NCBI RefSeq assembly: GCF_943169825.2
Contig: NZ_OW968402.1
Span: 1,550,001 to 1,614,000 of the forward strand
Direction: 5' to 3'
Length of the DNA stretch: 64,000 nt
DNA from: Varibaculum prostatecancerukia
Lineage (GTDB): Bacteria > Actinomycetota > Actinomycetes > Actinomycetales > Actinomycetaceae
Shown here: in pieces, positions 7,980-19,105 of the stretch
Layout of the letters: every line of letters begins with the position of its first letter
Numbering within the stretch: the stretch's first letter is position 1
The notes under the pieces: generated by a model
Databases searched by the model: none
What the model saw: only the letters and a program-made list of their open reading frames with translations
Told to the model about the DNA's origin: nothing
Program-made: the position numbers and the translations under genes

Positions 7980-10900
7980 TTAGCTATTAGCCGGCTCTAG
8001 GCGTTGCGAAATTACCCGCGATACTCCCTCACGCATAGTAACCCCGTAGAGCACATCAGCTACTTCCATAGTTCGTTTTTGGTGGGTAATCACAATCATC
8101 TGGCTAACTTCGCGCAGCTGTTTGAACAGCTCTAACATCCGTGAAAGATTCAAATCGTCCAGGGCGGCTTCAACCTCGTCCAAAATATAGAAGGGCGAGG
8201 GGCGGGCTTTGAAAATCGCGATTAGGAATGCCAACGCCGCTAGGGAACGCTCCCCACCAGAGAGCAGGGATAGGCGTTGCACGTTTTTTCCGGCGGGCCG
8301 GGCATTTATTTCCACCCCGGTAGTGAGCATATCTTCCGGGTCAGTCAGTTTCAGAGAACCGCTGCCCCCTGGGAACAGGTGGGAAAACACTTCCGTAAAC
8401 TCCCGGGCAATATCCGAGTACGCCTGTTCAAAGGCTTCTTTCACCTGGTGATCGACTTCCCGCACCACTACCAGTAGATCTGCTTTCGAAGTCCGCAGAT
8501 CTGTCAGCTGTCCCATTAAGAACTCAAAGCGTTTTTCGAGGGCGTGGTGTTCTTCTAAAGCTAAGGGATTAACTTTCCCCAGCCGGGAAATAGCGCGATT
8601 CGCTTTTTCCAGCAGGGCGCTCTGTTCAGCACGATCATAGGGGTGCCAGCCTCCTTCCTCAGGTTCTGCTGCGCTTTCCCCGCTGACAGTTTCAGTTTTT
8701 ACCTGCGCTTGCTCGGCGTTTGCTACTTCATCGGTTTTTGGCGTTTCCGTATCCTGTCCTTCATCTGCAGAGGTAGCAGCTTCTTCCTGGGCGTTTTCTG
8801 CCCGCTGCGCCAGCAGCTGCGGATCGGGAACCAGCTGCTGGGGACCAAAAGCGGCAATTAGTTCTTGGGGAGAAAGCGCGTAACGCTCCTGCGCTTGCTG
8901 AGTTAATTGTTCGGCGCGTACCCGGTATTCAGCGGCAGCCACCTCGTCGCGACGGCTTAAATCGTTTAGCTCTGCAAGCTGGGTATTCAAACGGTCTATT
9001 TCACTGCGTACTTGCCCGGCGGCCTGTGAGGAGGCGGCGCGGGCGGCCTCTGCGCTTTCCCGCCAAGTTTTCGCCACCTGGGCTACGCTGGCCGAACGCT
9101 GCGCAAACACTTCACACCAGGACGCCACCTGCAGCATTCTTTGGGAATCCCGGGCACGCTCGATTTCCCGTTGACTGCGGGCAGCTAGCCGCAATTGGAA
9201 CCGTTCCAAAGACTTTACTTCCCCTTGAAAACGTTCCCGCAAATTATTGGTGATCTGGGTAGCGGCCGCCAGCTCCAAGTGCGCCTGCGCAGCTTTTTCT
9301 CGAGCCGCTAAATCGGCGGCCCGAGCGGTCTCTAAAACTTGTTCTGCCTGCTGCAAAGGAGCTAAATCCTCGCTGCCCGCAAAAGCATCCCGCGCTTTTT
9401 GAGCCGCCGCTAACTGCTCCCTGCAGTTTTCAAAATCTACTTTCGCCTGCGCCAGCTCTGCTGCCGCCCGCTTTTCTTGGCTCTCGGCTCCGCTAACTGC
9501 TGCTTGGCTCAGTGCCCGTTCTTGCGCCTGCGCCGCCGCCTGAGCATCGGACTGGCGCAATACTTTCAATGCCTGCGCCGATGCCGCCGCTGCCTGCGAT
9601 AATTCTTCTGTAGCTACTTTCACCTGGGCACGCGCTTTTTCTGTAGCTTCTGCGGCCTCCTGAGCGGCTTTCCGGGCTAAGCGTAGACGCCGCTCCACCT
9701 CGATACGGTTAACTCCACCGCTGCCGGTTTCCCCCAGGTATTTGCCGATAATCGTACCGTCTTTGATCCCCACCCGCGCCTGCGGATTATCTGCGAGCAG
9801 TGCCTGCGCCTGCGCCAGATTTTCAGCTAAATAACTATCTTTTAGCAGCTCGTTTAATGCCGGGTGTAGCCCAGTAGGAGCCGAGATTACCTCTCGAGCC
9901 GGAATCGGTTCCCCCGAGCTGTTCGCGGCCGGCTTGCTCAGAGGAACGGCCGCGTCCTCTGGATTACCTACCACCCAACTAACGCTGCCACTGCGGTCTT
10001 TAACGGCCGCCAGCCCCGCCTCTAGCTGGGCTGCTTCAATGGTGAGGGCGGATCCGGCGCGCCCGAGCAAGGCGGCAATTGCCCCCTCCCAGCAATCGGG
10101 AACCGTGATTAAGGAGGCTAACTGTCCCCGCGACTTCGCTGCCTGCGCAAAAGTATTTTCAGCCTGGTTCGAGGAGGCGGCTAACACCCCACTGAGGCTT
10201 GCTTCGCTCTCGGAGGCGGCCACTGCTTTGGCTTCGCTTTCGCGCAGACGGTCGCGAGCTTTCTCTAATTGCGTGCGTACCTGGTTTTCCGCCTCGGATA
10301 GTTTCCGGTAGCTACCCGCCGCATCCACCCCGGATTCTGGAACTGTTTCTCCTGAAGCTTGTTGTTTTTCCCGCGCTGCCTCCAATTTTTCTTGCGCATC
10401 CGTCTGCGCTTTTTGGGCTCTTTGAATCCGGGAATCCGCTGCCTCCAGGCGCGCCTTGGCCGTTTCAACTTCCCGCTCTAGCCGCGCGGTCTTCTGGGTT
10501 TTTTGCTGTGCCTCTTCCCGCAACTCCTGGGTAATGCGAACCTGCTCCCCAACTTTCCGAGTGGTTTCTTCCCGGGCGGCTTCGGCGGCATCAGCTTGCT
10601 TGCGTTTAGCTAAAGTGTCCTCGTCATGACTGGCCAGTTCGCTTTGTAAATGTGCCAACTGGCTCTGGCGTTCCTCTACGCTGGGGCCGGCGGGAACTGG
10701 TTCAGGTTTCGCTAAGGAGGAGGCGCGTTCATTGGCTAGGGCTTCTAGGGCACGCAGGCGCTCGGTGATCGCGGTCAACTGTTGCCACAGATTGGTGGCT
10801 TTACCCGCTACATCGGTTTGCGTCGCATCTGCGGTTAATTTCTGCAGTTTTTCCTGCTGCAGAGCAAGTTTCTCCCCCAGTTCTTCGCGCCTAGTTGCCA

Positions 10901-11651
10901 GGGCTTTCCCGCTTTCTTTATAGCGGGAAAGCTGCAGGCTCATCTGCTGGAGGTCATCTGCCAGAATCCGGCACCCGGCATCGCGCGCCTGTGCCTGTAA
11001 CACCGCAGCTCGCCGCGCAGTTTTTGCTTGCCGCGCTAGAGGCCCTAGTTGCCTTTGAATCTCTTGGGTAAGGTCGGAAAGCCGGGAAAGTTTTTCTTCT
11101 AAACCATCGAGTTTCCGCAGAGCGCGTTCTTTACGCCGCTGATGTTTTAGCACCCCGGCGGCCTCTTCAATCAGGGAGCGCCGCTGGGAAGGGTCGGCAG
11201 AAAGTACCTGGTCGAGTTGACCCTGCCCGATAATCACGTGCATATTGCGCCCCATGCCGGTATCGGAAAGCAACTCTTGAATATCTAGCAGCCGGCAGGG
11301 AGTGCCGTTAATGGCATATTCGGAACCGCCCTGGCGAAACAGGGTGCGGGAAATGGTGACTTCCGAATAGTCAATCGGTAAATCTCCGCTGGTGTTATCA
11401 ATGGTCAGCGCTACTTCTGCGCGTCCTAGGGAGCTGCGGGAACTGGTGCCGGCAAAAATAACATCTGCCATGGAGCCGCCACGCAGATTCTTGGCACCCT
11501 GCTCGCCCATAACCCAGGCGAGTGCGTCTACGATATTGGATTTGCCAGAACCATTCGGACCGACAACACAGATGATTCCCGGGGTGAACTGCAAAGTGGT
11601 GGCGCTGGCGAAAGATTTAAATCCTCGCAGCGCCAGCGACTTTACATACAT
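7980..11651 (-). CDS. smc: Chromosome segregation protein SMC
   Basis: SMC is the ATPase core of the condensin complex with ScpA and ScpB. The 1223-residue protein has the N-terminal head with Walker A GPNGSGKSNIVDALAW (about residue 32), the GQGQLDQVLSADP motif, a first coiled coil, a hinge near residues 500-640 (LITVPDCWEGAIAALLGRAGSAL, then IGKYLGETGSGG), a second Ala/Gln-rich coiled coil, and the C-terminal head with the signature LSLLSGGERSLAALAF and Walker B FYILDEVEAALDD. An acidic Glu/Ala insertion near residue 970 (EEAATSADEGQDTETPKTDE) lengthens the second coil. ScpA and ScpB are not in the window. Confidence 0.97.
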   Translation of the reverse strand: MYVKSLALRGFKSFASATTLQFTPGIICVVGPNGSGKSNIVDALAWVMGEQGAKNLRGGSMADVIFAGTSSRSSLGRAEVALTIDNTSGDLPIDYSEVTISRTLFRQGGSEYAINGTPCRLLDIQELLSDTGMGRNMHVIIGQGQLDQVLSADPSQRRSLIEEAAGVLKHQRRKERALRKLDGLEEKLSRLSDLTQEIQRQLGPLARQAKTARRAAVLQAQARDAGCRILADDLQQMSLQLSRYKESGKALATRREELGEKLALQQEKLQKLTADATQTDVAGKATNLWQQLTAITERLRALEALANERASSLAKPEPVPAGPSVEERQSQLAHLQSELASHDEDTLAKRKQADAAEAAREETTRKVGEQVRITQELREEAQQKTQKTARLEREVETAKARLEAADSRIQRAQKAQTDAQEKLEAAREKQQASGETVPESGVDAAGSYRKLSEAENQVRTQLEKARDRLRESEAKAVAASESEASLSGVLAASSNQAENTFAQAAKSRGQLASLITVPDCWEGAIAALLGRAGSALTIEAAQLEAGLAAVKDRSGSVSWVVGNPEDAAVPLSKPAANSSGEPIPAREVISAPTGLHPALNELLKDSYLAENLAQAQALLADNPQARVGIKDGTIIGKYLGETGSGGVNRIEVERRLRLARKAAQEAAEATEKARAQVKVATEELSQAAAASAQALKVLRQSDAQAAAQAQERALSQAAVSGAESQEKRAAAELAQAKVDFENCREQLAAAQKARDAFAGSEDLAPLQQAEQVLETARAADLAAREKAAQAHLELAAATQITNNLRERFQGEVKSLERFQLRLAARSQREIERARDSQRMLQVASWCEVFAQRSASVAQVAKTWRESAEAARAASSQAAGQVRSEIDRLNTQLAELNDLSRRDEVAAAEYRVRAEQLTQQAQERYALSPQELIAAFGPQQLVPDPQLLAQRAENAQEEAATSADEGQDTETPKTDEVANAEQAQVKTETVSGESAAEPEEGGWHPYDRAEQSALLEKANRAISRLGKVNPLALEEHHALEKRFEFLMGQLTDLRTSKADLLVVVREVDHQVKEAFEQAYSDIAREFTEVFSHLFPGGSGSLKLTDPEDMLTTGVEINARPAGKNVQRLSLLSGGERSLAALAFLIAIFKARPSPFYILDEVEAALDDLNLSRMLELFKQLREVSQMIVITHQKRTMEVADVLYGVTMREGVSRVISQRLEPANS

Positions 11652-11664
11652 CTAGATTCTCTCG

Positions 11665-12114
11665 CTATTCGCAGGCGTCCGGGAACCAGATTTTTATTTC
11701 ACGGACAGCCGCGCTGGGCGAATCTGAAGCGTGCACCAGGTTTTGGATTTGTCCACTGTCGTAGTCGCGTCCATAATCGCCGCGAATAGTTCCCGGCGCT
11801 GCCTCGGTGGGGCTGGTGGCACCCACCAGGGAGCGTACCCCCTCAACTACCCGGGTGCCTTCAATAACTGCAGCCACAATCTTCCCGGACTGCATAAAGT
11901 CAACCACGGATTCAAAGAAATGTTTACCGCGATGCTCTTGATAGTGTTCATACAAATCATCATCGCTTGCCTGCACTACCCGCAAAGCGTCGATAGCGTA
12001 GCCTTTTTGCTCAATCCGCGCCAAGATTTTCCCAGTCAGCCCGCGGTGATAGCCATCCGGCTTCACCAGCACCAGGGTGTATTCCTTATCTGGATCCAAC
12101 TTGAAGTCACTCAT
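11665..12114 (-). CDS. ndk: Nucleoside diphosphate kinase
   Basis: Ndk transfers the gamma phosphate between nucleoside triphosphates and diphosphates by way of a phosphohistidine. The N-terminus YTLVLVKPDGYHRGLTGKIL and the active-site histidine in IQNLVHASDSPSAAVREIKIWF are clear, as is TSPTEAAPGTIRGDYG. At 149 residues it is slightly longer than the usual 135-140, with about ten extra residues before the first strand (MSDFKLDPDKE). It lies 13 bases upstream of smc on the same strand. Confidence 0.96.
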   Translation of the reverse strand: MSDFKLDPDKEYTLVLVKPDGYHRGLTGKILARIEQKGYAIDALRVVQASDDDLYEHYQEHRGKHFFESVVDFMQSGKIVAAVIEGTRVVEGVRSLVGATSPTEAAPGTIRGDYGRDYDSGQIQNLVHASDSPSAAVREIKIWFPDACE

Positions 12115-12244: not shown

Positions 12245-12958
12245 TCATTCCCCAGGCTGGATTGCATCCTCTGCTTCGGGCGCCGTTAGTGCCGCCTCTA
12301 CCGCGTCTAAGGCTTTAAGGGATTCCCCGCCTTCGGCGGCAATCCGCAGTTCATCCCCGGGTTTTATCTTCAACCCCATAAGCGCGAGGACGCTGCCCGC
12401 ATCAACCTGGTTAATGGTCACCTGGGCATCAAAACCAGTAGCAATCCGAGCTAAACGCGCTGCTGGACGCGCCGACAGTGGCTCTGAAGCCCCATAGGTG
12501 ATAGTGCGGGGAGCAAGCGGATCCGGAGCGGGCGGAGGTGGCAAAATATCTGCCGCATCCTCTTCGGGGTAAAACTGGGAGGCAGCATTGATTGATCGCA
12601 GGATTTCTGCCAGGTCTGCGCCTTGAGCGGCGGCCACTACTCCCGCAGCGGTTCCCTCCACAATCGGGCCGCGCCCTAGCCGCAGCCGGCGCATCCCGAT
12701 ATCGGTGATTACCTGTTGGCAGGCTAGCCGCGCAGCCCCAAAATCTGCCATTAAGACAATCGCGTCTTGTTCTCCGAGTTTTTCCATTACTTTGGAAATT
12801 TTTCCGCTCAGGATTTCAGCGGCGGTACCCAGCCCTTCATCATGGCAACCGCAGGGCTCGATAATCACTTTTGGAGCCAGGTTGGCTACCACTTCGCATA
12901 TTCCCCGCGCCAGCGTTTGTGACTGCGAAACAACAATAAAGGCAGTTTGCGGTTGCAT
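12245..12958 (-). CDS. DhaM-like PTS protein lacking both active histidines
   Basis: The protein has the layout of DhaM, the PTS subunit that phosphorylates dihydroxyacetone kinase: an EIIA-Man-like domain (residues 1-130) and an HPr-like domain (about 155-235). In the first, the motif VSHS that carries the phosphorylated His reads VSQSQTLARG. In the second, the HPr signature LHARPA reads LSARPAARLA, so His15 is Ser; the later DAGSVLALMGLKIKPGDEL keeps the HPr Ser46 region. Both changes are unambiguous in the DNA (CAG and TCG). It cannot pass phosphate by the known route. No dhaK or dhaL is in the window. It follows ptsH in the fructose PTS operon, so a regulatory, non-catalytic role is an inference. 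The ATG at 12958 has GGAGGAAA upstream. Confidence 0.8.
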   Translation of the reverse strand: MQPQTAFIVVSQSQTLARGICEVVANLAPKVIIEPCGCHDEGLGTAAEILSGKISKVMEKLGEQDAIVLMADFGAARLACQQVITDIGMRRLRLGRGPIVEGTAAGVVAAAQGADLAEILRSINAASQFYPEEDAADILPPPPAPDPLAPRTITYGASEPLSARPAARLARIATGFDAQVTINQVDAGSVLALMGLKIKPGDELRIAAEGGESLKALDAVEAALTAPEAEDAIQPGE

Positions 12959-12976
12959 AGCATTTCCTCCAAATAC

Positions 12977-13035
12977 AGATGTCCCCTCTAGGCTATCGCG
13001 CCACGGGGCACGACTTAAACCTAGAGGGGACATCT
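12977..13035 (-). repeat. 16-bp perfect inverted repeat between ptsH and the DhaM-like gene
   Basis: Arms 12977-12992 and 13020-13035 (AGATGTCCCCTCTAGG and its complement) are separated by 27 bases. No T run follows on the minus strand, and the ribosome binding site of the DhaM-like gene comes right after. It is more likely a partial terminator or RNA-stability hairpin lowering expression of the downstream gene than a full stop. Confidence 0.65.
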
Positions 13036-13082
13036 ACTTTTCGGTTTTAAGCGGATTTTTCCGCACGCAGGGTTGAGAACCC

Positions 13083-13343
13083 CTATTCGGCGTCTAAATC
13101 CTTTTCGACCAGTTCTGCAATCGCCGCGACAGCATCCTCGTTTTCACTCTCCACGGTAACCTCGGCACCGCATTCGGCACCCAAGGTCATGATCAGCATC
13201 ATCGAGGAGGCATCTACCGGTTCTTCTTCGGCGGTTCCAATAGTGATTTCCTCATCGAACTCGGCGGCTTTTTCCGCGATAATCGAGGCCGGGCGGGCAT
13301 GCAATCCCACGGAAGATCCTACTTTCACAGTTTTTGAAGCCAT
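13083..13343 (-). CDS. ptsH: PTS phosphocarrier protein HPr
   Basis: HPr carries phosphate from enzyme I to the sugar-specific EII components. The 86-residue protein has the active-site histidine in SSVGLHARPASIIAEKA (His15) and the regulatory serine region DASSMMLIMTLGAECGAEV. It is acidic at the C-terminus (ELVEKDLDAE). It lies 36 bases after fruA and belongs to the fructose PTS operon. It is the intact HPr of this locus, unlike the histidine-less HPr-like domain encoded just downstream. Confidence 0.96.
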   Translation of the reverse strand: MASKTVKVGSSVGLHARPASIIAEKAAEFDEEITIGTAEEEPVDASSMMLIMTLGAECGAEVTVESENEDAVAAIAELVEKDLDAE

Positions 13344-13379: not shown

Positions 13380-15428
13380 TTAGGCTTTGACTGCTGCCGG
13401 TTTCTTGCGGCGCATCTTAGCGAAAGTGACCGCGGCCGCAGCCACTGCCACCCCAGCTACCAGGGCGACTAGCGCCCCGAAAATATTGGTGTAGGCAAAT
13501 AGCACGAAGATTCCCCCATGCGGAGCCCGACACCCAACCCCTAGCGCCATCGCAATTGCGCCGGTCACCGCGCCGCCTGCCATCATAGAGGGGATTACCC
13601 GCAGGGGGTCGGCTGCGGCGAAGGGAATCGCGCCTTCAGAAATAAAGGACAGTCCCAGTAGCCAAGCGGCTTTACCGTTTTGCTGTTCTGCCGGCGAATA
13701 CAGTTTCGGACGCACCGTAGAAGACAGCGCCATCGCCAGGGGCGGTACCATTCCGGCCAGCATCACTGCTGCCATGAACTGATAGGACCCATCGGTAGCT
13801 TGCGATAGGCCGGCCGTACCTACCAGATAGGCGGCCTTATTGACCGGTCCGCCCAGGTCGAAGCACATCATCAGACCAATAATGATCCCCAACAAGATCG
13901 CCGAGGTACCGGCCATAGAGTTCAGCCAGTTCTGTAAGCCGCTCATCAAGGCTGCCAGGGGGCGACCGAGCAGCAGTAGCATTAATAGCCCCATTAGCAG
14001 GGTGGTTAGCAGTGGCACAATCGCCACCGGCATCAGTCCTGCTAGCCAACGCGGACATTTCAGAGTGGAGAGAGCATTAGCAATAATCCCGGCCAGAATC
14101 CCGGTCACCAGGCCGCCGATAAATCCGGCTCCCAGGGTTACCGAAATCGCGCCTCCAATGAAGCCAGGGGCGATGCCGGGACGTCCTGCCAGACCGAAGG
14201 AAATATATCCAGACAGCGCTGGCACCAAGAAACTCATTCCCGTTTGCCCCAGGAAGACCAACAGGGCTCCCAGGTAAAGCAACAATCCGGAGCGGTTAGT
14301 CATTATTTTGGCTTCCCCGAAGGGGCCAGAATCTGGCAGATTCCACAGCGAGAAGTTAAGGGAGATATCTTGCGCCGGGCCGGCCACATCATAACCGCCC
14401 AGCAGGAATCCCAAAGCGATTAGCAAACCGCCGGCTGCTACGAAGGGAATCATATAGGAAACCCCGGCCATCACTGCCTTTTGGATTCGCCGTGCCCAAC
14501 CTACTTTCTCTTCCGGCTGCGCATCGCTAGTAGTGGCTACCGGAGCCGCATTCGGGTCTTTCTTTTTCGTCATTACCTCCCGAATTAGCTTTTCGGGATC
14601 GTTAATGGCCGCTTTTACTCCCACATCCACTATCGGGAGATGAGAAAAACGTTCCGGTGCCTGCACACTAACGTCGTGTGCAAATATCGCCCCGGAGGCG
14701 CAGGCAATCAAAGCCGGGTCTAGCCGGTCGATATGCCCGGATCCCTGTGCCTCCACATGTACGGGAATCCCCAGTTCTTTGCCTTTGTTAAGCAGCGAAT
14801 CTGCCGCCATATAGGTGTGGGCAATCCCTGTGGGACAAGAAGTCACCGCTACCAGGTATTTCCCTTGGTCACCGCTGGATCCCGCTTCCGGTTTTACCGG
14901 AGCTACCGGGGCTGTAGGAGGATTCGCCGGAGCTTCCTTAGCCGCGGGCGCACTCTTGGAGGCAGCTGCCGAACCGGGCTCGACCACCTCCATAATGATC
15001 TCTGCGACCTGGTCGGCAGAATCCGCCGAACGTAAAGTAGCCAGGAAGTTCTTATCCACCAGTTTGCGTGCCAGCTTTTGCAGCAGTTTCAAATGTGCCT
15101 GTCCTTGCCCTTCGGCAGCAGCAATCATGAAAATCAAATCTGCCGGGCCGTCTTTGGCTCCAAAATCTACCGGCTGTGCCAGCCGGGCAAATGCCAAGCT
15201 GCCAACTTTAACTGCCTGCGAGCGGCAATGCGGAATCGCGATTCCCCCGGGCATCCCGGTCACGGATTTAGCCTCCCGCGCCATCAGGTCGCTAATTAAA
15301 CCATTTTGTTCAGCGCGCCCGGTGAGTGCGATTTTCGCAGCTAGAGCCGCGATTACGTTATCTTTATCTGTCCCCAGCGGCTCATCTAGGCTCACCAGCT
15401 GCGGGATTATCAACTTTTCGTCTTCCAT
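13380..15428 (-). CDS. fruA: PTS fructose transporter subunit IIABC
   Basis: This is a single-chain fructose-specific permease that imports fructose as fructose-1-phosphate. The IIA domain (residues 1-145) has the phosphohistidine in GIAIPHCRS. The IIB domain (about 185-285) has the phosphocysteine in VAVTSCPTGIAHTYMAADSL. The IIC domain (about 310-670) has multiple membrane helices, including GVSYMIPFVAAGGLLIALGF and GFISEGAIPFAAADP-like sequence. Linkers are Ala/Pro-rich. I start at the ATG at 15428, which follows AGGAGAACT, five codons inside a longer frame. It is followed by ptsH and preceded by the 1-phosphofructokinase gene. Confidence 0.95.
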   Translation of the reverse strand: MEDEKLIIPQLVSLDEPLGTDKDNVIAALAAKIALTGRAEQNGLISDLMAREAKSVTGMPGGIAIPHCRSQAVKVGSLAFARLAQPVDFGAKDGPADLIFMIAAAEGQGQAHLKLLQKLARKLVDKNFLATLRSADSADQVAEIIMEVVEPGSAAASKSAPAAKEAPANPPTAPVAPVKPEAGSSGDQGKYLVAVTSCPTGIAHTYMAADSLLNKGKELGIPVHVEAQGSGHIDRLDPALIACASGAIFAHDVSVQAPERFSHLPIVDVGVKAAINDPEKLIREVMTKKKDPNAAPVATTSDAQPEEKVGWARRIQKAVMAGVSYMIPFVAAGGLLIALGFLLGGYDVAGPAQDISLNFSLWNLPDSGPFGEAKIMTNRSGLLLYLGALLVFLGQTGMSFLVPALSGYISFGLAGRPGIAPGFIGGAISVTLGAGFIGGLVTGILAGIIANALSTLKCPRWLAGLMPVAIVPLLTTLLMGLLMLLLLGRPLAALMSGLQNWLNSMAGTSAILLGIIIGLMMCFDLGGPVNKAAYLVGTAGLSQATDGSYQFMAAVMLAGMVPPLAMALSSTVRPKLYSPAEQQNGKAAWLLGLSFISEGAIPFAAADPLRVIPSMMAGGAVTGAIAMALGVGCRAPHGGIFVLFAYTNIFGALVALVAGVAVAAAAVTFAKMRRKKPAAVKA

Positions 15429-15451
15429 AGTTCTCCTGTTCAAGGTCGCTG

Positions 15452-16423
15452 TTAAAGGCTAAGTTTGGTTATTTTGGCTTCTTCGGGATGGATTTCTGCG
15501 GGGGTAGGCGGCTGGGTTCCCACTTTCGCGCAGGCAGCTGCCCCATAGGCGAGCGCAGTCGCTAGGCATTCTTCTGAGCTCTTCCCTCGGCTTTGAGCAA
15601 GTACATATCCGGTGAGGGAAGAATCTCCGGCTCCCACGGTGGAACGCACCCGCACATCGGGGCTGGTTCCATGCCAGGCGCCCTCTTCAGTAATCAAAAT
15701 GGCACCGGCCGGCCCCAGGGTAGCCAGCACTGCCCCGACTCCCCGTTCGCTAAGTTCTTTGGCTTTACGCGCTACTGGCAGTAAATCTCCGCTGATAGCC
15801 GCCCTTTCCATTTCGGATCCGTTTCCTCCCAAAAGCTCAGCTAGCTCAAAAGAGTTGGGTTTCATCAGGTCAACTTTTACCTGGCCGAGCGCTTTCCCCA
15901 GGGCGCGCAGCGGCTGCCCGGAGGTATCGACTGCGAACCGCCCCTGGCAGCTAGCTAGTTCTTGTAGGCAGGTCACGTAAAAATCATCCGGCAACCCCGG
16001 GGGCAAGGATCCAGCGAGTACCACCCAGTCACTATCCTCGAGGGTTCCCGTCTGTTCCCTGAGTGCTGTCAGCAGCAATTTTTCTTGCTCCACATCGAGA
16101 GTGGGGCCGGGTTCGTTGATTTTGGTGGTTTCCCCACTGGCGTCGATAACCGTGAGGTTAGTGCGTACTGCTTCCGGAATTTCGGTGCACACATAGGGGA
16201 GGTCTACCTGGTCTAACAGCTCCAGAATCGGATCTTGGGTTTTTGCCGGCAACACGCAGCGAACCGGGAAACCGGCCTCTTGGGCTACCCGCGCCACATT
16301 GATTCCCTTCCCGCCCAGATCGGTGTGGGTAGAGATGATGCGGTGGACACCTCCCGGCACCAGGGTCTGCTCCAAGTTCACGGTTTTATCCAAACTGGAG
16401 TTCGCGGACAGGGTAACGATCAT
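15452..16423 (-). CDS. fruK: 1-phosphofructokinase
   Basis: This PfkB-family kinase converts fructose-1-phosphate made by FruA into fructose-1,6-bisphosphate. The N-terminus MIVTLSANSSLDKTV and HTDLGGKGINVARVAQEAGF are the sugar-binding start of the family, and the C-terminal catalytic signature is RVRSTVGAGDSSLTGYVLAQ, with the base Asp in GAGDS. The gene overlaps the stop of the DeoR regulator by four bases (ATGA) and is eight bases before the longer fruA frame, so regulator, kinase and permease are translated as a coupled set. The usual fruR-fruK-fruA order supports the assignment. Confidence 0.94.
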   Translation of the reverse strand: MIVTLSANSSLDKTVNLEQTLVPGGVHRIISTHTDLGGKGINVARVAQEAGFPVRCVLPAKTQDPILELLDQVDLPYVCTEIPEAVRTNLTVIDASGETTKINEPGPTLDVEQEKLLLTALREQTGTLEDSDWVVLAGSLPPGLPDDFYVTCLQELASCQGRFAVDTSGQPLRALGKALGQVKVDLMKPNSFELAELLGGNGSEMERAAISGDLLPVARKAKELSERGVGAVLATLGPAGAILITEEGAWHGTSPDVRVRSTVGAGDSSLTGYVLAQSRGKSSEECLATALAYGAAACAKVGTQPPTPAEIHPEEAKITKLSL

Positions 16424-17190
16424 GCCAAGAACACTTCTTTCGCTAGTTTTCCTAAGTCTTTGCCGGCAATTTCACTCAGACGCTGATCCGAAATCAGCAT
16501 TTCAATTTCACCGGGAGCAGCAAACTGGACGATACCGGTGTGGCCATATTTATCTGCATCCGCCAGCACTACCGCGTGACGACTGCTCTGCACCATTGCC
16601 CGTTTTACCGCAGCTTCCTCGATATCAGGGGTGGTATAACCATCGAGCGGATCCATCCCGTTTGTACCCAAGAAAGTGATATCCGGGTGGAGGGCGCGCA
16701 CGGCCTGCACCGTGACCGCCCCGACTGTCGCCAGGGTGGACTCGCGCACTGTCCCTCCGATTAGATGTACTTTCAGGCTGCGGGTGCGGGTGGCAACAGC
16801 CGCTGCAATCGCCGCCGAGTTAGTCACCAGTAGTAAATCGGCGCGGTCAGGGAGCAGCTCTGCAAAATAGGCGGTCGAGGAGCCGGCATCCAGGAAGACA
16901 GTAAACGCGCCCTCGGGAATGTGGCTGAGGGCGAGCTGCGCCATTTTTCTTTTTTCTTCGCCGTTGACTTTCATCCGCTCGGACAATTGCGACTCGGGGA
17001 TCTGTTGGATGCCGACTGCTCCCCCGTAAACCCGCTTCGCTTTGCCCTGGTCGGACAATAATTCTAGGTCGCGGCGAATAGTTTCATCGGAAACTTCAAA
17101 CCGCTGCGCTAACTCGCGCAGACTCACCTGCCCGAACTCAGATAGCGCTTGCTCGATGAGGAGGCGGCGGCCTCCGCTATGAACCGGCAT
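16420..17190 (-). CDS. fruR: DeoR-family transcriptional regulator of fructose PTS
   Basis: The 256-residue protein has an N-terminal winged helix of the DeoR type (VSLRELAQRFEVSDETIRRDLELLSDQGKAKRVYGGAV) and a C-terminal sugar-phosphate sensor domain related to ribose-5-phosphate isomerase (FLDAGSSTAYFAELLP, LIGGTVRESTLATVG, FLGTNGMDPLDGYTTPD). It likely represses the fru operon and responds to fructose-1-phosphate, as known for related regulators; this is inference. The ATG at 17190 has GGGAGGCGAAG directly upstream, so I reject the longer start at 17241. It heads the operon, divergent from ptsI. Confidence 0.92.
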   Translation of the reverse strand: MPVHSGGRRLLIEQALSEFGQVSLRELAQRFEVSDETIRRDLELLSDQGKAKRVYGGAVGIQQIPESQLSERMKVNGEEKRKMAQLALSHIPEGAFTVFLDAGSSTAYFAELLPDRADLLLVTNSAAIAAAVATRTRSLKVHLIGGTVRESTLATVGAVTVQAVRALHPDITFLGTNGMDPLDGYTTPDIEEAAVKRAMVQSSRHAVVLADADKYGHTGIVQFAAPGEIEMLISDQRLSEIAGKDLGKLAKEVFLA

Positions 17191-17228
17191 CTTCGCCTCC
17201 CGTCTTGCTGTAAGAATGGAACCTGGTA

Positions 17229-17257
17229 GATAGAGAATCACCAGAGCCGTTGGTCAA
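17229..17257 (-). promoter_or_regulatory. Candidate promoter of fruR-fruK-fruA
   Basis: On the minus strand TTGACC (17257-17252) and TCTATC (17234-17229) are separated by 17 bases, about 40 bases upstream of the fruR ATG. No operator could be recognised with confidence. Confidence 0.5.
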
Positions 17258-17431: not shown

Positions 17432-19105
17432 ATGTCCGCAGAAGAAACAATCTATGGCACTCCAGTGGTTAATGGTCTAGCCTACGGGCCAGTCGCCTGG
17501 GTTAGCCGTTTTGAAATCCCCAAACTGCCTGCCACGAAAATCCCGCTAGATGAGCGGGAGGCTGAAGCCGAGCGCTACACTCAAGCGGCTCAGACCGTAT
17601 CCGGACGCCTGCTGGCTCGCTCTAAAGAAACCGTAGGCAGCGCCGCGGATGTTTTGGCCGCCCAAGCGGAACTTTCTCGCGACCCCGGTTTCAAGAAAAT
17701 GGTGGTCACAGCCATAAACAAAGGCACCCCAGCCGCCACTGCCGTGATGACCACCACCGAAATGTTCTGCTCTATGTTTGAAAAGGCCGGCGGGTTGATG
17801 GCCGAACGCACCACTGACCTGAACGATCTTTGCTTGCGAGTGGTAGCCGAACTGCTAGGAGAACCCGAACCGGGACTGCCCCATCTGGCTGAGCCTTCGG
17901 TACTTTTCGCCGATGATCTAGCTCCGGCCGACACCGCCGGATTGAACCCGGCAGAAATCTTGGCTTTGGTTACCGAACAGGGCGGCCCCACCTCCCACAC
18001 TTCGATTATTGCTCGCCAGCTGGGGATTCCCTGTATTGTAGCGGCACGTAAACTGCACCAGATCGAGCAAGGGGAACAGGTCTTTGTAGACGCCTCCCTG
18101 GGGACGATTACCACTGGAGCTGACCCGGATGAAGCCCTCCCGAAAGTTGAGGCTGATCTGCGCGCTCGCGAAGCTATCCGTAACTGGTCGGGGCCAGCCC
18201 GGCTTGCCAGTGGCGAGGATGTGGAACTGTTAGCCAATGTTCAAGATGGTCCCGGCGCTCAGAAAGCCGCCACCGGATATGCGCAAGGGGTGGGTCTGTT
18301 CCGTACCGAGCTCTGTTTCTTAGATTCGGCGAAAGAACCTACTACTGAACAACAGGCAGAGATATATTCACAGGTGCTGGCGGCTTTCCCGGACAAGAAA
18401 GTGGTTACTCGCACCTTGGATGCCGGATCGGATAAACCGATTTCTTGGGCAACTTTGGATGAAGAACCTAACCCCGCCCTGGGGGTGCGAGGGCTGCGCA
18501 CCACCGGCATTGACGAAGATCTATTCATCCGACAGTTAGATGCGATTGCGCAGGCAGCTCAGAGTCATCAAGGGAAAAACTGGGTGATGGTGCCGATGGT
18601 TTCTACCTTGTCCGAGGCAAAGTGGGTGGCAAAGCTGATTCACGACCGGGGCCTTACTGCCGGAATCATGGTGGAAGTGCCGGCAGTCGCGATTATGATT
18701 GACCAGTTCTTAGCCGAGGTTGATTTCGTTTCTATCGGCACTAATGACCTCACCCAATATGTGATGGCGGCAGATCGGATGAACGCTAATCTGGCCACCT
18801 ATACCGATTCCTGGCAGCCAGCAGTTTTGACTTTGATTTCCCGGGTAGCTGACGCCGGGGTGCGCCTGGGTAAACCGGTAGGGGTTTGTGGGGAGGCTGC
18901 GGCTGACCCCATTTTGGCCTGCGTCCTGATTGGTATGGGGGTCACTTCCCTGTCGATGGCTGCTTCGGCGATTCCCGGAGTGGGTGCCCAGCTAGAACAA
19001 GTGACTAAAGAACAGTGTGAAAACGCGGCGAAAGAGATTTTGACGGCTCAAGATAGCGGAGATGCCCGGACTAAAGCCCGCCGCGCCCTGGGGATTGATC
19101 GCTAG
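17432..19105 (+). CDS. ptsI: PTS enzyme I (phosphoenolpyruvate-protein phosphotransferase)
   Basis: Enzyme I takes phosphate from phosphoenolpyruvate and passes it to HPr. The 557-residue protein starts with GTPVVNGLAYGPVAWV, has the phosphohistidine in TEQGGPTSHTSIIARQLGIPCI (about residue 188), and the PEP-binding barrel with GVGLFRTELCFLD, TLDAGSDKPISW, NPALGVRGLR, GIMVEVPAVAIMIDQF and FVSIGTNDLTQYVMAADR ending in the active cysteine VGVCGEAAADP. All catalytic residues are present. It is transcribed away from the fructose operon and ends one base before the convergent FHA gene, with no terminator between them. Confidence 0.96.
   Translation: MSAEETIYGTPVVNGLAYGPVAWVSRFEIPKLPATKIPLDEREAEAERYTQAAQTVSGRLLARSKETVGSAADVLAAQAELSRDPGFKKMVVTAINKGTPAATAVMTTTEMFCSMFEKAGGLMAERTTDLNDLCLRVVAELLGEPEPGLPHLAEPSVLFADDLAPADTAGLNPAEILALVTEQGGPTSHTSIIARQLGIPCIVAARKLHQIEQGEQVFVDASLGTITTGADPDEALPKVEADLRAREAIRNWSGPARLASGEDVELLANVQDGPGAQKAATGYAQGVGLFRTELCFLDSAKEPTTEQQAEIYSQVLAAFPDKKVVTRTLDAGSDKPISWATLDEEPNPALGVRGLRTTGIDEDLFIRQLDAIAQAAQSHQGKNWVMVPMVSTLSEAKWVAKLIHDRGLTAGIMVEVPAVAIMIDQFLAEVDFVSIGTNDLTQYVMAADRMNANLATYTDSWQPAVLTLISRVADAGVRLGKPVGVCGEAAADPILACVLIGMGVTSLSMAASAIPGVGAQLEQVTKEQCENAAKEILTAQDSGDARTKARRALGIDR

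Follow-up and report, generated by a model that had tools for sequence, protein, structure and literature searches.

The window, a stretch of 64,000 nucleotides from Varibaculum prostatecancerukia, carries a fructose operon of the phosphotransferase system (PTS) with, next to it, a gene for a fusion of a IIA-Man-like and an HPr-like domain. This is the domain make-up of DhaM, the protein that passes phosphate from a histidine of its HPr domain to a histidine of its IIA domain and on to ADP on DhaL. Both histidines are missing from the protein encoded here, which is referred to below as pseudo-DhaM. In window coordinates, the genes and features of the locus are as follows.

7980–11651, minus strand: smc-like gene (name based on sequence), also conserved in this neighbourhood
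11665–12114, minus strand: ndk-like gene (name based on sequence), downstream, conserved next to dhaM and homologous across relatives
12245–12958, minus strand: pseudo-dhaM, IIA-Man–HPr fusion of 237 aa, both phospho-histidines missing
12281–12511, minus strand: HPr-like domain, residues about 150–226 (Pfam PF00381; matches to HPr and Crh structures)
12473–12475, minus strand: TCG codon of Ser162 (LSARPA), replacing HPr His15 (alignment; S, D, K or G across four lineages of the clade described below)
12581–12940, minus strand: IIA-Man-like (EDD-fold) domain, residues about 7–126 (Pfam PF03610; Foldseek matches to 3b48, 3cr3 and 3ct6)
12836–12853, minus strand: clade motif C36-x-C38-H39-D40-E41, in the loop that follows strand 2, on the sheet edge shared with residue 12 (9 of 9 in the clade; predicted secondary structure)
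12923–12925, minus strand: CAG codon of Gln12 (VSQS), replacing the phospho-His codon (alignment; all 100 other relatives have His)
12976–13036, minus strand: intergenic hairpin immediately upstream of the pseudo-dhaM ribosome-binding site (RNA fold z −9.8)
13083–13343, minus strand: ptsH (HPr), histidine intact in LHARPA (translation, Pfam)
13380–15443, minus strand: fruA (fructose EIIABC)
15452–16423, minus strand: fruK (1-phosphofructokinase)
16420–17241, minus strand: DeoR-family regulator
17432–19105, plus strand: ptsI (enzyme I), divergent

The frame of pseudo-dhaM is unbroken and begins with an ATG preceded by a GGAGG ribosome-binding site. A longer frame of 262 aa from an upstream ATG is also present; the 237-aa start is favoured because of the GGAGG site and its agreement with the starts of the Varibaculum orthologues. 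Pfam assigns residues 7–119 to EIIA-man (PF03610, E 1.4e-4) and residues 152–225 to PTS-HPr (PF00381, E 5e-17), while the NCBIfam DhaM models score far under their cut-offs. In Foldseek searches the fold resembles that of DhaM (3CT6, 3CR3) and of the DhaM relative 3B48, and the AlphaFold model is of moderate confidence (pLDDT 78, pTM 0.55). Gln12 aligns with the histidine of VSHS in Lactococcus lactis DhaM (3CT6/3CR3), and Ser162 with the phospho-histidine position in the HPr chains of solved structures. A misalignment, with the phosphorylated histidines lying elsewhere, is ruled out by these alignments to solved DhaM and HPr sequences, which leave no other histidine at either position. The sequence-only reading had reported VSQS and LSARPA, with codons CAG and TCG, in a full-length and intact frame, and codons, alignments, the uninterrupted 237 aa and the matches to both Pfam domains all bear it out. 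Elsewhere in the operon the phosphorylation sites are intact, as read directly from the translations: LHARPA in HPr, GGPTSHTSI in enzyme I, GGIAIPHCRS in the IIA domain of FruA and SCPTGIAH in its IIB domain.

The hairpin between ptsH and pseudo-dhaM is also strong in two near relatives (G004 and V. vaginae) and not in three others (V. cambriense and G005). It contains the element TTTAAGT-N-GCGATAnCCTAG, which is single-copy and conserved in 5 of 6 genomes. An Rfam search of 12976–13036 returned no credible family, only a sub-threshold microRNA match.

Joint loss of the histidines in a single clade

Searching 213 genomes within the family, together with 59 relatives, supplied the DhaM-type proteins, and 109 distinct ones were aligned. 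Both histidines are present in 100 of these and neither in nine, and not one of the 109 has lost a single histidine. The nine come from six Varibaculum species, Nanchangia anserum, a second genome of the Nanchangia genus and one further genus (G168). The residues at the IIA-Man and HPr sites are Q and S in Varibaculum, Q and D in G168, V and K in N. anserum, and Q and G in the second Nanchangia-genus genome. As the histidines are absent from 9 of 9 within the clade and present in 100 of 100 elsewhere, their loss is not a matter of chance or sequencing error. The question raised by the sequence-only reading, whether Gln and Ser are shared in the clade, is answered by a missing histidine throughout, with Q or V at the first site and S, D, K or G at the second.

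In the DhaM tree the histidine-less proteins group together (100/98), as do the nine genomes in a tree of the neighbouring smc (93/95), which fits a single origin and vertical descent. A scan for the clade motifs across the contigs of 84,980 species gave matches only in Varibaculum, Nanchangia and two Actinomycetaceae MAGs, besides one partial match, only 16 residues long, in a MAG of Ilumatobacter. A contig titled 'Tissierella sp. Marseille-P2918' (L138) has a locus of the Varibaculum type and is placed with Varibaculum by the trees, so that the name of the record is apparently outdated or wrong.

The pseudo-DhaM proteins of the six Varibaculum species are 78–94% identical across the whole alignment. 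Pairwise dN/dS is 0.04–0.11 (Nei–Gojobori; approximate values, because dS is near saturation in distant pairs), the same as for ndk, ptsH and ptsI, and pseudo-dhaM is under strong purifying selection. Loss of two catalytic residues is what a decaying pseudogene might display, and the sequence-only reading had allowed that orthologues might keep VSHS and LHARPA while this copy decays; that case is excluded by the clade-wide loss and the dN/dS values. With frames intact in nine genomes of three genera, new invariant residues and neither relaxed selection nor a broken frame, the probability of decay is negligible.

Missing kinase partners and the history of the locus

In most of the relatives examined the gene order is dhaK–dhaL–dhaM–ndk–smc–ftsY, and many of them have folC upstream (a label given from sequence and consistent homology). 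Nanchangia and G168 have folC–pseudo-dhaM–ndk–smc; dhaK and dhaL are gone and dhaM is retained. All six Varibaculum species have fruA–ptsH ahead of pseudo-dhaM–ndk–smc and a divergent ptsI, and in four of them deoR and fruK accompany fruA–ptsH. In V. cambriense (L036, L037), unlike other Varibaculum species, there is no fruK or deoR between ptsI and fruA. The short IIA-Man–HPr form of DhaM found in Actinomycetota shares domain order, length, fold and the ndk and smc synteny with pseudo-DhaM and is its direct orthologue. With both the IIA-Man and HPr domains and the dhaM–ndk–smc position preserved, pseudo-dhaM is the original, vertically inherited dhaM of the Actinomycetaceae, left after the loss of dhaKL at the locus. 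The linkage to fru genes is limited to Varibaculum, and because the sister genera carry pseudo-dhaM without fru genes alongside, its role probably predates the fructose operon context.

The search for dhaK and dhaL proposed in the sequence-only reading found no DhaK (no PF02733 match) and no stand-alone DhaL in the V. prostatecancerukia genome, where the sole Dak2 match is weak and lies in a 649-aa frame; in this genome, then, there is no DHA kinase for pseudo-DhaM to serve, and such a role is excluded. According to a survey of the PTS, IIA-Man-containing multiphosphoryl proteins always go together with DHA kinase genes (PMC2405797), and the Varibaculum–Nanchangia clade is an exception to this rule.

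Elsewhere, some genomes of the clade have another kind of DHA kinase locus, with a DhaM–HPr–EI fusion. DhaK is encoded away from pseudo-dhaM in G001 and G003 (V. cambriense), in the Nanchangia genome G032 and in G168, which would leave room for pseudo-DhaM as a residual, unphosphorylated helper of a DHA kinase. We regard this as highly improbable, as DhaK occurs in 2 of 6 Varibaculum genomes and pseudo-dhaM in 6 of 6, the four genomes without DhaK including that of V. prostatecancerukia, and the dha locus, where read in Varibaculum, has its own DhaM–HPr–EI fusion. The V. prostatecancerukia genome holds an orphan fusion of this kind, of 814 aa and without dhaK or dhaL (L075 9708–12152, minus strand; C1 39707–42151). 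It shares its first two domains, IIA-Man and HPr, with pseudo-DhaM but is fused to enzyme I and keeps its histidines in VSHS and GMHARPA. Beside it (L075 12228–14606), a putative acyltransferase gene occupies the place of dhaKL in V. cambriense. In the Nanchangia genome G032 a dhaK match (C1 1698114–1699023) runs over two frames with one TGA inside, near DhaL and DhaM-like matches, which might reflect a disrupted gene or an error of sequencing.

A different role for a DhaM without histidines

Within the IIA domain, the clade has acquired the motif C[GS]CHDEGL, in which C36-x-C38-H39-D40-E41 occurs in 9 of 9 proteins where canonical DhaM has A-G-G-T/x-D-D/E. C36, C38 and H39 do not vary among the nine, and canonical DhaM, with A, G and T at these positions, seldom or never has them; further residues gained in the domain that are likewise rare or absent there include Q12 (8 of 9), E41, F73 and G95. 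Sites gained by the clade cluster in the loops of the former active edge, at 11 of 35 positions against 6 of 88 elsewhere (Fisher p 9e-4), although the p values of this and the following comparison are guides only, because sites were treated as independent, ancestry was ignored and the loops were chosen by hand from predicted secondary structure after viewing the alignment. The predicted structure (pLDDT 78) places the motif loop after strand 2 and residue 12 after strand 1, a topology from which we infer that C36, C38 and H39 may lie close to residue 12.

In the HPr-like domain the former histidine position is S, D, K or G across four lineages and thus unconstrained, while all nine proteins agree in residues of helix 1 (R164, P165, A166) and of the Ser46 loop (S189, V190, L191, M194, L196). 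It is with this face that known HPr proteins make contact with enzyme I and IIA domains, and that HPr and Crh make contact with CcpA. Invariant residues are enriched on it (13 of 21 positions against 10 of 55; Fisher p 4e-4, again as a guide), but canonical DhaM shows the same enrichment, so the conservation may reflect a constraint of fold or dimer.

Compared with DhaM as the phosphoryl donor of the PTS-dependent DHA kinase, pseudo-DhaM lacks the histidine of the IIA-Man domain, that of the HPr domain and the linkage to, or presence of, dhaK and dhaL, and carries the C-x-C-H-D-E motif in addition. Judged by its residues, it cannot relay phosphate by the histidine route of DhaM. The loss of both histidines and of the kinase genes, strong selection and the new Cys/His motif together make a different job most likely, and pseudo-DhaM probably has a new, regulatory one. 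The suggestion of the sequence-only reading that the protein has a role without the usual histidine phosphotransfer gains strength from the clade-wide loss of both residues and the retention of the gene. For the decoy or sensor of HPr or enzyme I that it named as examples, the conserved HPr face would allow docking.

Among known systems, Crh would be the nearest analogue in working. This regulatory HPr-like protein of Bacillus and relatives has His15 replaced (by Gln in Parageobacillus) and Ser46 kept (PMC9631020), much as pseudo-DhaM has Ser162 at the His15 position and, in 9 of 9 proteins, S189 aligned with Ser46. Crh, however, is a single HPr domain that is phosphorylated by HPr kinase and has CcpA as its partner, whereas pseudo-DhaM also carries a IIA-Man domain. 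No HPr kinase (PF07475) was found in the nine clade genomes; pseudo-DhaM is therefore not a Crh, and a Crh-type Ser46-phosphate switch, left without a known writer, is rejected. The EDD-fold proteins DegV and FakB use a IIA-Man-like fold for binding rather than for histidine phosphotransfer (PMC9136124) but have no HPr domain, and the best matches of pseudo-DhaM, by sequence or by structure, include none of them.

We tentatively prefer to think of pseudo-DhaM as a pseudo-phosphotransferase in which the HPr-like domain docks a partner while the altered IIA pocket either holds a metal or ligand or responds to redox state, a reading that is plausible but somewhat short of probable. With dhaK and dhaL lost from the locus and both phospho-histidines lost from the protein, in either order, dhaM has stayed on in the Varibaculum–Nanchangia clade under strong purifying selection. 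Helix 1 and the Ser46 loop of the HPr-like domain might dock a normal reader of HPr, be it the N-domain of enzyme I, a IIA domain or a regulator, and the pocket rebuilt around Gln12 and the C36-x-C38-H39-D40-E41 loop could serve for binding of a metal or small ligand or for thiol redox sensing, its state setting the docking state of the HPr-like domain. In Varibaculum, the position downstream of fruA–ptsH could tie the dose of pseudo-DhaM to fructose uptake. A narrower version, in which a Cys-x-Cys-His metal or redox site controls the docking domain independently of phosphate and couples redox or metal state to sugar uptake, is distinctly doubtful.

Other roles can be drawn from the same features. 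The protein might be a new enzyme or metal protein, its IIA-Man fold having acquired a site for catalysis or metal that has nothing to do with the PTS, and its HPr-like domain serving structure only; invariant new residues in the old active-edge loops, the drifting HPr histidine position and the sharing of the EDD fold with FakB, a fatty-acid binding protein (PMC9136124), point this way, but the HPr partner face is still constrained, no known homologous site was found and the closest solved structures are plain DhaM and HPr, so that we hold it a minority possibility. Rather unlikely is a decoy or buffer, whose dead HPr-like domain would compete with HPr for enzyme I or the IIA domain of FruA and so damp fructose phosphotransfer, with the IIA domain merely dimerising: such a protein would suit the fruA–ptsH linkage in 6 of 6 Varibaculum species, the conserved HPr face and the presence of enzyme I and a separate HPr in all nine genomes, but it leaves the invariant C-x-C-H-D-E motif unexplained, and the sister genera keep pseudo-DhaM without neighbouring fru genes. 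That pseudo-DhaM is still a phosphocarrier, with phosphate on another residue such as H39, is very unlikely; H39 is invariant, its loop lies at the sheet edge of the lost histidine and free HPr might in principle phosphorylate it, but the S, D, K or G of the HPr domain has no replacement histidine beside it, which breaks the normal HPr-to-IIA relay.

Pseudoenzymes are well known among kinases. It is unusual for a PTS carrier to lack the phosphorylation sites of two domains, to have outlasted its kinase partners and to show a newly conserved motif where its active site used to be, and our searches of the open-licence literature found no report of such a protein. Annotation by domain or similarity alone would wrongly label pseudo-DhaM a working DhaM. 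With nine genomes that point back to one ancestor, the Varibaculum–Nanchangia clade offers a tractable natural example of a phosphotransfer protein that has probably been given a new role.
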